A stretch of 37,602 nt of DNA, taken from IMG/VR virus record IMGVR_UViG_3300025671_012093, positions 1 through 37,602 of that record. One strand, written 5' to 3'. Positions within the stretch are counted from its first letter, which is position 1. Each line of letters begins with the position of its first letter. This DNA comes from a virus. Below the pieces are notes generated by a model that saw nothing but the letters and a program-made list of their open reading frames with translations, had not been told where the DNA came from and did no database searches. The translations under genes and the position numbers were made by a program. Of the stretch, positions 4,262-11,477 are shown one piece after another.

Positions 4262-5419
4262 CTATTTCTTCTGGTAGGTCTTGGTCAGCGCCGCGTTGAC
4301 GCTGTTGCCGCGCTTCAGCACGACCCGAGCGAGTGCTGCCCGGTCGTTATGGCTATGGCTGGCCTGGCTGAGCAGGCCGAAGTAGCTGTTGGCGGTCTCA
4401 CGAAGATCCTCGGCCGGTGCCTCGGCTGTTCGCTTCAGCGCCTGGGCAAGCGACCGCTTGCGAGTTGAGCGCCGCCAAGGCTTGATCACATGCCCAACGA
4501 AGTCGACGCCGCGGTCCACGGGCTGCAGGATCGTCTTGGTCGGGTTCAGTTTGGCGCCGAGCCTGGGCAGGAACGCTTCGACCTCGGCCAACCACTGATT
4601 GAGCTGCTGTGGCGACTCGTGCAGGAATACGAAGTCATCCACGTAGCGAATGTAGTGCTTGGCGCGCAGCGTGTGCTTGGCGAACTGGTCCAGGGCGTCG
4701 AGGTAGACGTTGGCGAAGAACTGCGACGACAGGTTGCCGATCGGCAGGCCGAGGCGCGCGGGCTGCGCAACCAGGCGCTTGTGCTGCGGCACCCGGTTGA
4801 ACAGGTGCGCGGGGCTGCGGGTCTCGTAATCCTCGCGAGGGTCGTGCATGAGGATCTGCGTGGCCAGTGCCAACCACCAGGGTTCGGTGATCCTGGCTTC
4901 CAGCTGCTTGCGCAGCACCGCCTTGTCGATGGCGACGAAGAAGTTGGCCAGGTCGCACTTCAGGTAGAAGATCGGCTTCGACCAGTTCTCGCTGGCGCTG
5001 CGGATCTTCGACTCAAGGCGCTTGGCTGCGTAAAGCGTGCCGCGCCCTGGAATGCATGCGCAACTGTCCGCTATGAAGCTGGCGTAGAAGCGCGGTGCCA
5101 CATGGTTGTACAGCAGGTGGTGGACGACACGGTCCCGAAAGGCTGCCGCCCATACCTCGCGGGCTTTTGGTCGGGTGACCACGAAACAGATGGATCGGCC
5201 TGGCCGGTAAGTGCCGGCAATCAGGTCGTCGTGCAGCTCCAGCAAGTTGATCTCCATGTCCTTCTCGAACAGCCGGGCACTTGCGGAGTTCCGCTTGTTG
5301 CGTCGGCAGTCGTAGTAAGCCTGGACGAGATCCTCGAACTGGAAGGGGGCAACACTTAAATCTGCGGACAGGGCGCGCGAGCCGCTCGTTGTTCTTGTCG
5401 TTGTTGTTGAGCCAGCCAT
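4262..5419 (-). CDS. drt: DGR reverse transcriptase
   Basis: About 385 residues of a retroelement reverse transcriptase. The first catalytic Asp lies in YLKCDLANFF (~156). Motif 4 reads GLPIGNLSSQ (~224-233), with the SQ ending typical of DGR enzymes rather than the SP of group II intron or retron enzymes. The active site is YVDDF (~259-263), followed by the GxxLNPxKT motif. There is no maturase or endonuclease domain. It would copy the template RNA with adenine-specific errors and deliver the cDNA to the variable repeats. The start is uncertain: the only ATG (5419) and a TTG (5425) both lie inside the template repeat, neither has a clear ribosome site, and no conventional start exists between the TR and the conserved core. 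Avd, TR and three targets lie upstream. Confidence 0.93.
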   Translation of the reverse strand: MAGSTTTTRTTSGSRALSADLSVAPFQFEDLVQAYYDCRRNKRNSASARLFEKDMEINLLELHDDLIAGTYRPGRSICFVVTRPKAREVWAAAFRDRVVHHLLYNHVAPRFYASFIADSCACIPGRGTLYAAKRLESKIRSASENWSKPIFYLKCDLANFFVAIDKAVLRKQLEARITEPWWLALATQILMHDPREDYETRSPAHLFNRVPQHKRLVAQPARLGLPIGNLSSQFFANVYLDALDQFAKHTLRAKHYIRYVDDFVFLHESPQQLNQWLAEVEAFLPRLGAKLNPTKTILQPVDRGVDFVGHVIKPWRRSTRKRSLAQALKRTAEAPAEDLRETANSYFGLLSQASHSHNDRAALARVVLKRGNSVNAALTKTYQKK

Positions 5420-5462
5420 CTTCAAAGTCCATGTTGTAGGCGTTGTTGGCGGAGCGCTGCGA
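5359..5462 (-). repeat. DGR template repeat (TR)
   Basis: About 103 bp that match all three variable repeats without gaps. Read leftward, it is packed with AAC codons (Asn), the usual TR design that lets A-to-N changes sample many residues but not stops. Its conceptual translation includes SANNAY, DFEDGW and NNNDKNNER, yet no target gene contains it. It lies between avd and the reverse transcriptase and overlaps the 5' end of the RT reading frame. Every mismatch to the three VRs within the core falls on a TR adenine (33 of 33). The 3' 25 bp (GAGCGGCTCGCGCGCCC onward) are GC-rich and invariant, as expected for the cDNA-priming side. Confidence 0.95.
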
Positions 5463-5632: not shown

Positions 5633-5986
5633 TCAAGCAGCGGGCGCGGCTGCGGATTTCTTCCAGGCGTTGGCCTGGCGGCCTATTGAGGCCGTCATCA
5701 TCATTGCTTTGGCGTGCTGCCCCTTGCTGATCAACCCTCGGTTGGTGAGGGCGCGCAGCAGGTAGTTGAGCATCCAAATGCTTTCGAGCAGGAGGTTGAT
5801 GTGGGGCAGCTTGTCCCGGGTCATATTGGCCCGGCCGATCAGTACCAGGACCTGTAGGCACTCGTCACGGATTTTTGCCCCGACAACCTGTTTCAGGTCG
5901 CGCGGGATATTGCGCACCAGGTCAAGCGAAAGCCCGAGCAACTCCTCGGCCACCTTGTGGATTTCCAAATCCGTATGCAGCGCCAT
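5633..5986 (-). CDS. avd: DGR accessory variability determinant (Avd), four-helix bundle
   Basis: 117 residues, all helical, with four helices separated by short turns (about 5-20, 28-48, 55-82 and 88-112). The sequence fits the Avd/four-helix-bundle family found with DGR reverse transcriptases, including the IRDECLQVLVLIGRAN and ESIWMLNYLLRAL segments and a basic surface. Avd-family proteins form pentamers that bind the RT and template RNA and are needed for mutagenic retrohoming. The start was chosen at 5986 because GGGAGG precedes it by 6 nt; an upstream in-frame ATG (6025) lacks a site. It lies between target 1 and the TR, the common target-avd-TR-RT order. The call is strong given context. 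Confidence 0.88.
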   Translation of the reverse strand: MALHTDLEIHKVAEELLGLSLDLVRNIPRDLKQVVGAKIRDECLQVLVLIGRANMTRDKLPHINLLLESIWMLNYLLRALTNRGLISKGQHAKAMMMTASIGRQANAWKKSAAAPAA

Positions 5987-6007
5987 CCCTGGCCTCCCAA
6001 AAAGCAA

Positions 6008-6023
6008 GGGCGCTATCGCGCCC
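6008..6023 (-). repeat. GATA-tetraloop hairpin downstream of VR1
   Basis: On the leftward strand the sequence is GGGCGC-GATA-GCGCCC, a perfect 6-bp GC stem with a four-base loop, about 33 bp past the end of VR1. Short GC-rich hairpins with GRNA-type tetraloops just downstream of the VR are known target-recognition elements in the Bordetella phage DGR. The TR has no such hairpin after it, as expected. It overlaps the region upstream of avd and could also affect avd translation. Confidence 0.6.
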
Positions 6024-6043
6024 ATGAATGAAGAATTGAATGA

Positions 6044-7738: not shown

Positions 7739-8053
7739 TCATGGGGTGTCGGCGAACTTGAAGCCGTTCTCCTGGGCGATCAGCATCACGCGCTTGATGT
7801 GCATGCCCAGGTTCTTTGCTGCCACGCTGGCTACGACGCCCTTGGCGGCCTCGGCGCGTACCGACGGTGCCAGCTTGTCACGCTGGGCACGCAGGCGTTC
7901 GTGGTGAGCGGTGGTGCCATTGAAAGGACCATCAGCGCTGACGCCGCTCGGGATGACCTGGGCGGTCTTGCCCGCGCCGAAGTAGGCATCAATCTGGCGG
8001 TTGAGGTCGGCGATTACCGCGTCTTTCGGGTTGTCCATCGGTACGCCGATCAT
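7739..8053 (-). CDS. Hypothetical protein with possible HTH C-terminus
   Basis: 104 residues. The start ATG overlaps the stop of the upstream gene (ATGA), so translation is probably coupled. The C-terminal ~40 residues (GVVASVAAKNLGMHIKRVMLIAQENGFKFAD) have the spacing of a helix-turn-helix. The N-terminal part has NRQIDAYFGAGKT and a Gly/Ser-rich linker, then a basic helix. An alternative internal start (8038) would remove five residues. No family is recognised. Confidence 0.6.
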   Translation of the reverse strand: MIGVPMDNPKDAVIADLNRQIDAYFGAGKTAQVIPSGVSADGPFNGTTAHHERLRAQRDKLAPSVRAEAAKGVVASVAAKNLGMHIKRVMLIAQENGFKFADTP

Positions 8054-8331
8054 TGCGCGCCGCCTGACAGCGTCACCTTCACGCCGTCGGCCCGAGATTC
8101 CAACTCCTGGGCAAAGTTGCTGGCATCCTTCCAGGTCCAGCGGAAGCCCTTTACCTTACCGGTGGCGATCTCCACGATGTGGTAAGCCTTGCCGGCGGTG
8201 CGGATCTGAAAGCGAATCTTCTGCACTGGCGCCTCCTTGCCGATCAGGGCGTAGAACTCGGCGGTCGCGATGCGGGAGCGCACGTGCAGGGCCGCAACCC
8301 CGTCTACGCGCTGTTGAATTGATGCGTGCAT
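8050..8331 (-). CDS. Hypothetical protein
   Basis: 93 residues, mixed beta/alpha, with a central KIRFQIRTAGKAYHIVEIATGKVKGF strand-rich block and a WTWKDASNFAQELE helix. GAGG lies before the ATG. It is the first gene after the strong hairpin terminator at 8432-8460, and a 12-bp perfect inverted repeat (8361-8416) lies in its leader. The gene is coupled to the next one through ATGA. The function is unknown. Confidence 0.62.
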   Translation of the reverse strand: MHASIQQRVDGVAALHVRSRIATAEFYALIGKEAPVQKIRFQIRTAGKAYHIVEIATGKVKGFRWTWKDASNFAQELESRADGVKVTLSGGAQ

Positions 8332-8360
8332 GGTGGATACCTCAGTGGGTTGCGTGTATT

Positions 8361-8416
8361 CGTCAGCACCCTGACCGCCTGGTCTGTGCCGGTGGGCCCA
8401 GGGGAGGGTGCTGACG
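8361..8416 (-). repeat. Perfect 12-bp inverted repeat in a gene leader
   Basis: 8361-8372 pairs perfectly with 8405-8416 (CGTCAGCACCCT / AGGGTGCTGACG). An inner CCTGG/CCAGG pairing lies inside the 32-nt loop region. It sits between the terminator at 8432-8460 and the start at 8331, so in leftward RNA it would be a stable leader hairpin. Confidence 0.6.
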
Positions 8417-8431
8417 GGTAAACGCGAGATG

Positions 8432-8460
8432 AAAAAAAGCCCAGTAGGGACTGGGCTTTT
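8432..8460. terminator. Bidirectional rho-independent terminator
   Basis: AGCCCAGT-AGGG-ACTGGGCT forms a perfect 8-bp stem with a 4-nt loop, flanked by A7 on one side and T4 on the other. It can therefore end leftward transcripts (U-run of seven) and rightward ones. It separates target 3 from the genes 8331-7292. Leftward transcription must pass it by antitermination, or restart. Confidence 0.85.
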
Positions 8461-8595
8461 CGTTGCGTTACATAGACCTCCCTATGTCACGCAGGGGGTG
8501 GCGGTCGAGCGCCTGGGTTTGTTGTTTACATGGCTGCCAATCCTCCGTTCTAGGTGGGTTGAAATGCAGGTGGCCGGCGCGCGCCGGGTGTTCGT

Positions 8596-8721
8596 CCGCA
8601 TCGGATATAGCTCGAATCCCTCCGAGTGTTGTCCGTCTACGCCGCGACAAGATCCGCTCAGGCTCGGGACAAGGTGGCCACCCTGCTATCACGACAGAGT
8701 GCCGAGCTATATCCGATGCGG
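8596..8721. repeat. 126-bp element closed by a perfect 19-bp inverted repeat
   Basis: 8596-8614 (CCGCATCGGATATAGCTCG) is the exact reverse complement of 8703-8721. The 88-nt interior has further pairings on the leftward strand: GGTGGCCACC, TTGTCC with GGACAA, and GCG with CGC. No direct target-site duplication is obvious at its ends and no open frame is convincing. It could be a structured RNA, a small inverted-repeat element, or a cruciform linked to VR3, which ends about 96 bp away. The rest of 8461-8806 holds no gene I can support; a 15-bp palindrome (ACGACAGGCTGTCGT) lies at 8757-8771. Confidence 0.7.
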
Positions 8722-8806
8722 CCTGGTCTGGGGAGTACCAGGGCCTCGGGCAGTTAACGACAGGCTGTCGTGGCGCTGGTTGTTCGAAAAAAATTGAAGG
8801 AATGAA

Positions 8807-9295
8807 TTACTGAAGGAATCTGCGGACAGGGCGCGCGAGCCGCTCGCTGCTCTTGTCGTCGTCGTTGAGCCAGCCATCGTCAAAGTCCATGCTGTAGGCG
8901 TAGTCGGCGGAGCGCTGCGTTGACGACAGGTAGTACCACTCCTCGCTGAACGACTCGGGAGCGAACTGCCAGGCGTGATGCAACTCGCCAATGGAAGGCA
9001 GATAGAAGTCGGTATGCCCGTCGGCGGTGTACGCGGTGACTGCGATCGCGGCGGGGTGCTTGCCGTCTCGACTGATCAGGATCTCGGTATTGGCACGGCC
9101 ATCGGTTCGGCTCAATGCATCGACATCCACGCCGTAATCGCCGTATTCGTGACGACCAGGTACATCCTGGGCTGCGTAGATGATGTGGCAGAGACCTTCT
9201 GGATACTGGCGAATCCCACCGTAGATGCCGCCCTGACCAGGCCATACAGCGCCTATTTCAGGGATGGTGATTTGTTGTTGCGCTGCTGTTTGCAT
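8807..9295 (-). CDS. DGR target protein 3 (C-type-lectin/DUF1566-like, VR3)
   Basis: 162 residues from the ATG at 9295, which has GAGGA 6-7 nt upstream; two earlier in-frame ATGs (9331, 9319) lack sites. It is the closest paralogue of target 1: IPEIGAVWPGQGG, YGDYG, DGRANT, HPAA and DGHTDFYLPS blocks precede the VR3-encoded end (ADYAYSMDFDDGWLNDDDKS then ERLARPVRRFLQ). No signal peptide or membrane helix is seen. VR3 is the repeat closest to the template (8 changes), so this gene may have been retargeted most recently. A conserved hairpin leader shared with the TerB-like gene lies directly upstream. Confidence 0.9.
   Translation of the reverse strand: MQTAAQQQITIPEIGAVWPGQGGIYGGIRQYPEGLCHIIYAAQDVPGRHEYGDYGVDVDALSRTDGRANTEILISRDGKHPAAIAVTAYTADGHTDFYLPSIGELHHAWQFAPESFSEEWYYLSSTQRSADYAYSMDFDDGWLNDDDKSSERLARPVRRFLQ
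8817..8919 (-). repeat. DGR variable repeat 3 (VR3)
   Basis: 103 bp aligned without gaps to TR 5359-5461, with 8 differences, all at template adenines. The match extends two bases further at the 3' side than in VR1. Together with VR2 it shares the post-stop sequence CAGTAATTCATT. Confidence 0.95.
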
Positions 9296-9314: not shown

Positions 9315-9360
9315 GTCATCCCGCTGCCCACTCATTGAATGGGCAGAAGTGATGCTTTAC
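9315..9360 (-). promoter_or_regulatory. Conserved hairpin leader, copy B (before target 3)
   Basis: In leftward RNA: AAAGCATCACTT, stem CTGCCCA, loop, stem TGGGCAG, then CGGGATG. The same layout occurs at 9811-9857 with a different but still complementary stem. It ends about 20 nt before the start of target 3 and overlaps the last codon of the TerB-like gene. Confidence 0.6.
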
Positions 9361-9791
9361 AGGTGGTCTTTCAGATTCAGCCCCAGCAGCTTGGCGCTGC
9401 GCTCGAGGGCGGTCAGCTCGGCCGGTTCGATCTCGCCGTCGGCCTCGGCCACTGTGAGCATCACGTTGAGTACGGTCAGCGCTTCGGCCGGGGAGTGAGC
9501 CAGGTCGCCCAGCTCTTTCTCGGCGTTCTGCCGCAGGATGCGAGCCCCTGACTTGAAGTCGGTTTTGGCGCGGTCGATGGTGTTGGACAGCTCAGCGCCG
9601 AAGCCCTGGAGCGCTGGGTTGTTGCTCAGGATGGTCTCGATCTTCGACAGCTCGCTCTCTTCCAGGTCGCCGTCTGCGGCCGCAACGTAGATGCTGCCGT
9701 ACACAACCGCTTCCATCAGGTCGCGGTTTGCCAGCTTGGCGACTGCCGCACGGGCCTGGCCGGATTTCTTGCCGAACAATTTGCCTAACAT
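9357..9791 (-). CDS. TerB-like (tellurite-resistance TerB family) protein
   Basis: 144 residues starting MLGKLFGKKSG at 9791, behind AGAGGAA. An in-frame extension to 10325 is rejected because it runs through the PL/operator region. The helical domain (~25-140) has the two acidic repeats typical of TerB: VAAADGDLEESELSKIE (~37-53) and VAEADGEIEPAELTALE (~111-127), which bind divalent metal in the family. The basic N-terminus is common in phage-borne forms. It is the first gene of the leftward PL transcript. TerB proteins are linked to stress and phage defence, but the role in this phage is unknown. Confidence 0.85.
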   Translation of the reverse strand: MLGKLFGKKSGQARAAVAKLANRDLMEAVVYGSIYVAAADGDLEESELSKIETILSNNPALQGFGAELSNTIDRAKTDFKSGARILRQNAEKELGDLAHSPAEALTVLNVMLTVAEADGEIEPAELTALERSAKLLGLNLKDHL

Positions 9792-9810
9792 GGTTATTCC
9801 TCTGGGTTGG

Positions 9811-9857
9811 GTGACATCCCGCTGCACCCTGTTACCAAGGTGCAGAAGTGATGCTTT
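9811..9857 (-). promoter_or_regulatory. Conserved hairpin leader, copy A (before TerB-like gene)
   Basis: In leftward RNA: AAAGCATCACTT, stem CTGCACC, loop, stem GGTGCAG, then CGGGATG. Compared with copy B, two base pairs of the stem have changed on both sides (A-T to C-G and C-G to A-T) while the flanks are identical. That is compensatory change and argues for a functional RNA structure. It ends about 20 nt before the start codon. The rest of 9860-10085 is untranslated PL leader in which I see no gene. Confidence 0.6.
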
Positions 9858-10089
9858 CCCTCCTACTGCCGCCGGAAGGGGCGGGGCGCATTGCTTGCCG
9901 GGTCGTTCACTCGGTTCTGGCGTTTCACCATCGAGCAGCCGTACAAGGTTTTCCCTGTCGTTGGCAGGCTTTCGGGCCTGTCCGCTCGCCGGTCGCCGGT
10001 AGAGGCAATGCGGTCTGTTGTTTGTTGCGCTGGCTGTTAAAGAGCAGTGGGTCTCTTGAGGCCCTGACCGTCTGCTTGTGTTTCTATTG

Positions 10090-10144
10090 CAAGTCGGCTT
10101 GCATTTATAAAAGCATGCTTGTGTATTGAATGCAAGCACGCTTG
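10090..10144. promoter_or_regulatory. OL: three repressor operators
   Basis: Three copies of a 12-bp palindrome with consensus CAAGCATGCTTG: 10090-10101 (CAAGTCGGCTTG), 10110-10121 (AAAGCATGCTTG) and 10133-10144 (CAAGCACGCTTG). The last two are spaced 23 bp apart, exactly as in OR. The expected ligands are the CI-like repressor (11417-10566) and Cro. Confidence 0.82.
10104..10135 (-). promoter_or_regulatory. Leftward early promoter PL
   Basis: On the minus strand, -35 TTGCAT (10135-10130), 17-bp spacer, -10 TTTTAT (10112-10107), with TATAAA overlapping at 10109-10104. One operator overlaps the -35 and one fills the spacer, so repressor binding would block it. The layout mirrors PR. Confidence 0.6.
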
Positions 10145-11429: not shown

Positions 11430-11477
11430 CAAGTTAGCTTGGCAAGCATGCTTGCTTAGTAAACACAAGCATGCTTG
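11430..11477. promoter_or_regulatory. OR: three repressor operators
   Basis: 11430-11441 (CAAGTTAGCTTG), 11443-11454 and 11466-11477 (both CAAGCATGCTTG, perfect palindromes). They fill the 88-bp gap between cI and cro. The degenerate copy is nearest cI and the two perfect copies lie nearest cro. Confidence 0.88.

Follow-up and report, generated by a model that had tools for sequence, protein, structure and literature searches.

Organisation of the locus

The window, by which we mean the whole stretch of 37,602 bases analysed here, is a virus record that carries a DGR, with RT (4262–5425) and Avd (5633–6025) genes, three targets and an RT-15 RNA. Read along the minus strand, the region of interest begins with palindromes at 10111–10144, which are like those found beside cI at 11443–11476 and mark a likely oL/pL region, the promoter position being putative. 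These are followed by boxA (GCTCTTTAACA, 10035–10045) of the leftward early transcript, then by two slot genes, the first TerB-like (9357–9791, likely start 9791) and the second DGR target 3 itself (8807–9295, likely start 9295), and finally, downstream of target 3, by the element that is the subject of this work. A hairpin leader (GCATCACTTCTGC...GCAGCGGGATG) is repeated before both slot genes, at about 9798–9855 and at 9315–9353 on the minus strand; relatives have GATTTCACTGGC...GCCAGACGGGAAATC in its place.

The earlier note had placed the element in a 475-bp gene-free gap between target 3 and a strong terminator. The gap was found as described (8332–8806), but the intrinsic terminator (8435–8460, minus strand), which starts 136 bp and ends 161 bp downstream of the 3′ arm of the element, lies inside the gap and not at its edge. 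A second long, imperfect inverted repeat (8352–8425, minus strand) is located just upstream of the gene at 8050–8331 and is also present in relatives.

The same order, boxA followed by one or more variable genes and then the element, was seen in related loci. The boxA 12-mer CGCTCTTTAACA occurred in 56 of them, and GCTCTTTAAC was present on the same strand, up to 2.5 kb upstream, for 50 elements (for 90 elements the upstream DNA covered exceeded 1.5 kb) and on the opposite strand for none. In the annotated phages LESphi3, MD8, LC3I3 and D14E the element is part of the early-left region, on the left side of cI. In 95 of the 138 elements recovered (see below) the module began 4–5 nt after the end of the upstream ORF, across many unrelated genes, with the TGA stop codon mostly belonging to the conserved junction. 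Comparison of the slot proteins with Pfam and PADLOC mostly gave no match; one was methyltransferase-like with a weak match to mad2.

The inverted repeat is the core of a larger conserved block

The perfect 19-bp inverted repeat that first drew attention to the locus was confirmed, positions 8596–8614 (CCGCATCGGATATAGCTCG) being complementary to 8703–8721 at 19 of 19 positions, with 88 nt in between. Allowing up to three mismatches, the only matches to the arm in the window were the two arms themselves, and no such site arose in 100 shuffles of the window. RNA folding of the 126 bp (8596–8721) gave −59 kcal/mol for the plus strand (z −5.6) and −62.6 kcal/mol for the minus strand (z −4.8), but this excess was mostly due to the arms, and interiors taken alone were no more stable than their shuffles (48 families, mean z 0.02). 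The statement that none of the annotated features explains the element also held, since scanning against the Rfam 15 covariance models, at gathering and at relaxed E-value thresholds, assigned it to no family and returned only weak chance hits (E ∼4).

The 126 bp had been taken for the whole element. Alignment of homologues showed instead that they are the variable centre of a longer block, conserved over about 220 nt (AACAACCAGCG...CACCTGCAT, 8564–8784, minus-strand reading), outside which the sequences were unrelated on both sides. On the minus strand the block consists of hairpin A (8757–8771), a constant single-stranded linker TAACTGCCCGA (8746–8756), hairpin B (CCTGGT...ACCAGG, 8722–8742), a clamp GCATCGG...CCGATGC, and hairpin D (CCGGCGCGCGCCGG, 8574–8587) followed by CACCTGCAT at 8564–8572. 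The clamp forms the constant part of the long stem: GCATCGG lies in the 5′ arm (8703–8721; CCGATGC at 8713–8719 on the plus strand) and CCGATGC in the 3′ arm (8596–8614; GCATCGG at 8598–8604 on the plus strand). The sequence held by the clamp (8605–8712, minus strand), made up of an inner stem ATATAGCTCG and the interior, is variable and exchangeable between phages, and we refer to it as the payload; that of the window was assigned to payload family 0.

Covariation was evident both in the frame and in the payload. Hairpin A, in the constant 5′ module, had a covariation score of 0.342 compared with 0.076 for shuffled alignments (0/500 shuffles as high), its stem varying with compensation while the loop, AGCCT, was nearly constant. 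For the payload family of the window, 98.5% of the cells were paired and seven pairs had changed on both sides (0/500 in controls), and covariation extended from the outer stem to the internal helices. Compensatory changes thus exceeded both shuffled and slid controls, as expected for a structured RNA, which had been one of the three options offered for the element and is the one that the homologues support. The consensus folding energy favoured the minus strand (−50.2 compared with −42.1 for plus), which is the strand of the early transcript. However, wobble pairs in the stem were in no clear excess over A–C mismatches (47 versus 56 cells; 42 versus 27 events once one recurrent position was excluded), and so RNA over DNA, and the choice of strand, are only moderately supported.

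Distribution of the element

The exact arms were present in five Pseudomonas genomes and 19 IMG/VR contigs. A pattern based on the 5′ module matched at least 120 IMG/VR stretches and 88 of 398 Pseudomonas genomes, compared with two matches for the reversed control pattern; by our reading, a true hairpin A occurs in about 45 of the 398 sampled genomes, which is a lower bound. Among 194 genomes from across the order the pattern matched only the seed genome, and the element therefore looks confined to Pseudomonas. A search for copies in Pseudomonas genomes and phages had been suggested, and 138 were recovered from them; they carried 126 distinct payloads in 54 unrelated families, although the family counts depend on BLAST clustering, and the pattern-based sampling will have missed copies with a changed frame. 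The carriers include many phages, among them LESphi3 and MD8. One Pseudomonas genome (G040) had four 5′-module matches, on contigs C19, C20, C21 and C25, which suggests several related prophages.

Across these elements the clamped hairpin ranged from 40 to 215 nt (median 120). The 8 nt next to the clamp in the inner arm were represented by 43 different sequences, with perfect Watson–Crick pairing in 83 of 138 elements, and MD8, PseuP_224 and two further loci (L028 and L029) kept the frame with a different long stem. We are confident of the basic architecture, a constant frame displaying an exchangeable long hairpin. As a separate observation, four loci (L004, L008, L009 and L026) had the payload family of the window behind a different 5′ module (GGAAGTCCGGTGCAAGCCCGG), so that swapping can extend to the frame as well.

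Payloads are exchanged at the clamp

Three pairs of loci had near-identical upstream stretches of 656–666 nt (97–99.7%) and payloads of different families. For L044 and L151 the flanks matched over 656 nt upstream and 600 nt downstream, both at 97%; for L068 and L146 over 656 nt upstream (99%) and 252 nt downstream (97%); and for L059 and L142 the upstream identity was 99.7%, with downstream homology limited to 100 nt at 79%. In all three pairs identity broke exactly at the clamp, between GCATCGG and CCGATGC. As the upstream sequence and the slot gene were nearly identical in pairs with different payloads, the payload is not matched to the slot gene; a type III TA-like pairing, in which the payload would be fixed to the adjacent gene, was rejected on the same grounds. 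Family 0 payloads occurred in unrelated contexts, with upstream sequence common to only three of 136 pairs.

Exchange also took place within the hairpin. In some families the stem had been replaced and re-paired around a conserved interior; in family 7 the interiors were 93% identical between members with stems 68% identical, and the stem type GTGTGAT was common to 21 payload families. Stem and interior are thus exchanged separately. The payload of L039 enclosed a module of about 180 nt that other phages have as a free unit downstream, and a second clamped payload hairpin, in tandem with the first, was present at six or more loci; both observations fit discrete RNA units. Judged from these sequence comparisons, the clamped content evidently moves between phages as a cassette.

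Interpretation and alternative explanations

Read directly from the DNA are the constant frame with the limits set by its clamp, the swapping of payloads, the covariation, and a position that follows boxA and an unrelated gene's stop codon; together they point to an element that is probably transcribed and folded as described. We propose that in temperate Pseudomonas phages it would belong to a structured RNA of the pL transcript, made from the minus strand, in which the frame (hairpins A, B and D and the GCATCGG/CCGATGC clamp) would display a long hairpin with exchangeable content. The perfectly paired stem, free in sequence, would serve as a clamp, isolating the module and keeping it stable, and the payload would be an RNA effector that works in trans early in infection, for example as a decoy or inhibitor of a factor of the host or of a rival phage. 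Content that is exchangeable and not matched to the neighbouring gene suggests selection by outside factors, of host or rival, hence the reading of the payload as an effector in trans, and such a role would explain why payloads are swapped while the frame is kept. We give this function of the payload a little less than an even chance. Phage RNAs that mimic host defence RNAs are known, namely the RNA-based anti-CRISPRs (Racr; PMC10651486) and pseudo-ToxI (PMC3475682); these offer one functional analogy for a payload, with no shared scaffold described for them, and the Rfam scans of the element gave no match to a CRISPR repeat or to ToxI. The fuller proposal, that the first early transcript contains an RNA cassette slot whose swappable modules, some of them tRNA-derived, serve as anti-defence decoys or inhibitors in an arms race, is put forward only tentatively.

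The most serious alternative is that the element works in cis in RNA processing or stability, the stem being an RNase III site or a 3′-end barrier on the mRNA of the slot gene and the interior mostly filler. The placement of the module 4–5 nt after the stop codons of so many unrelated genes would fit this idea, as would a stem that is long, near-perfect, free in sequence and of a length to suit RNase III, and interiors without extra stability. Filler, however, would show neither conserved interiors nor covarying internal helices, whereas family 7 interiors were kept between unrelated flanks while their stems changed, and the internal helices do covary. We regard cis processing as a serious possibility, though less probable than action in trans.

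It would be less probable still, and we think it unlikely, that the element is a transcriptional one like HK022 put or a nut site, where the nascent RNA would modify polymerase and allow read-through of downstream terminators. The position in the pL transcript downstream of boxA, the intrinsic terminator that follows the 3′ arm in the window, and the sharing of AACAACCAGCGCCA between the 5′ module and the boxA region of some relatives are in its favour. Close behind its promoter, HK022 put works in cis on RNA polymerase, and it is not known to carry an exchangeable payload. Our element shares with put (PMC9378689) the character of a structured RNA placed in early transcripts of a lambdoid temperate phage, but it lies far downstream, hundreds of nucleotides from the promoter, and its payload varies without a matching change in the neighbouring genes. 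Moreover, a terminator-like site was found within 500 nt downstream in only 27 of 129 loci, and for this reason an attenuator controlling a local terminator was also rejected as a general explanation.

A role for the structure in the DNA itself, with cruciforms or single-strand hairpins directing how the moron slot recombines and exchanges genes, might account for the fact that slot genes and payload are both exchanged at sharp boundaries, and the near-equal frequency of A–C mismatches and G–U pairs would agree with it. Exchange within shared conserved sequence, however, requires no special structure, the near-constant AGCCT loop on the covarying stem of hairpin A fits an RNA hairpin better, and covariation is found in the internal helices too, so that this explanation seems improbable.

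The other two options raised at the outset fared poorly. A non-autonomous, MITE-like mobile element with 19-bp terminal inverted repeats would agree with the perfect repeats and with content that moves between phages. However, the phage genome contains no copy besides the two matched arms, neither target duplications nor empty sites were seen, the position in the early operon is fixed, different contents occupy the same clamp within a constant frame of hairpins A, B and D, and the alignment of flanks gave no insertions at unrelated sites, all of which makes it very unlikely. As for a cruciform connected with VR3 of the DGR, comparable to the inverted repeat found downstream of VR in phage BPP-1, only the location of the element downstream of target 3 suggests it, and it can practically be dismissed. 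RT/Avd genes were near only seven of the 138 element-bearing loci in the flanking DNA examined, a large excess of carriers being free of a DGR; no counterpart of the element accompanies VR1 or VR2 of the window; and the arm is separated from VR by about 66 bp or more, with a loop of 88 nt.

Comparison with known systems

In the lambda sib/RNase III sites and the REP-like 3′ hairpins, as in the element, a long stem immediately follows a stop codon of the leftward transcript. The former act on the lambda int mRNA, and for neither do we know of a constant frame with swapped, internally conserved contents. GOLLD and ROOL RNAs occur in phages and are not known to undergo cassette exchange. They are large, ornate bacterial RNAs, bigger than the element and with fixed folds (PMC12286853), and the element had no Rfam match to either. 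Integron attC sites, like the element, follow an ORF and enclose a variable hairpin between conserved ends, but here the exchanged piece is the hairpin content and not an ORF plus site; on reading the sequence for the paired core sites RYYYAAC/GTTRRRY, GTTAACT was found to depart from the consensus and to have no visible partner.

For proteins and DNA, gene cassettes that are exchanged while their frame stays constant are familiar from integrons and morons. Within the literature available as open-access full text, we know of no RNA slot in which the hairpin content is itself the exchanged unit. Should the modules prove to work in trans, their 54 families would amount to a ready-made collection of phage RNA effectors; should they work in cis, they would bring to light a new rule for the early transcripts of phages. 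The frequency of the element in sampled Pseudomonas genomes and its presence in many phages, LESphi3 and MD8 included, make it testable now.

tRNA-like payloads and neighbouring minigenes

In one locus (L131, 6785–6854, minus strand) the clamped payload contained a tRNA-like domain that scored 37.2 bits with the Rfam tRNA model (threshold 29 bits); its anticodon loop is abnormal. Strict T-arms were present in payloads of two of the 54 families, compared with 0.03 expected, and most payloads, including that of the window, had no tRNA likeness. These few cases suggest, at the level of sequence, that RNA modules may have been captured. ARAGORN at relaxed thresholds gave noise and was dropped. That one locus (L132) carries the anticodon arm of a host tRNA-Thr is not claimed, the exact 15-mer being absent from three Pseudomonas genomes. 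The idea that payloads are antisense to other phages was likewise set aside: no antisense match to known element zones was obtained (E <0.01), other minus-strand matches not having been sorted by element orientation.

Downstream of the block, the window has two start–stop minigenes (ATG TAA) on the minus strand, one at 8526–8531 with the Shine–Dalgarno sequence GGAGG at 8542–8546, and the other at 8468–8473, inside a hairpin, with GGGAGG at 8477–8482. The arrangement of a Shine–Dalgarno sequence, ATG, 0–3 codons and a stop was found within 400 nt downstream in 47 of 125 loci, compared with 2 in shuffles, and in 2 of 87 cases in a control region. In this composition and in their place in an early transcript the minigenes are like lambda bar; unlike the parts of the clamp, they stand beside the hairpin element. 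The forms that recur in related loci are M-stop, MK-stop, MD-stop and MHK-stop.
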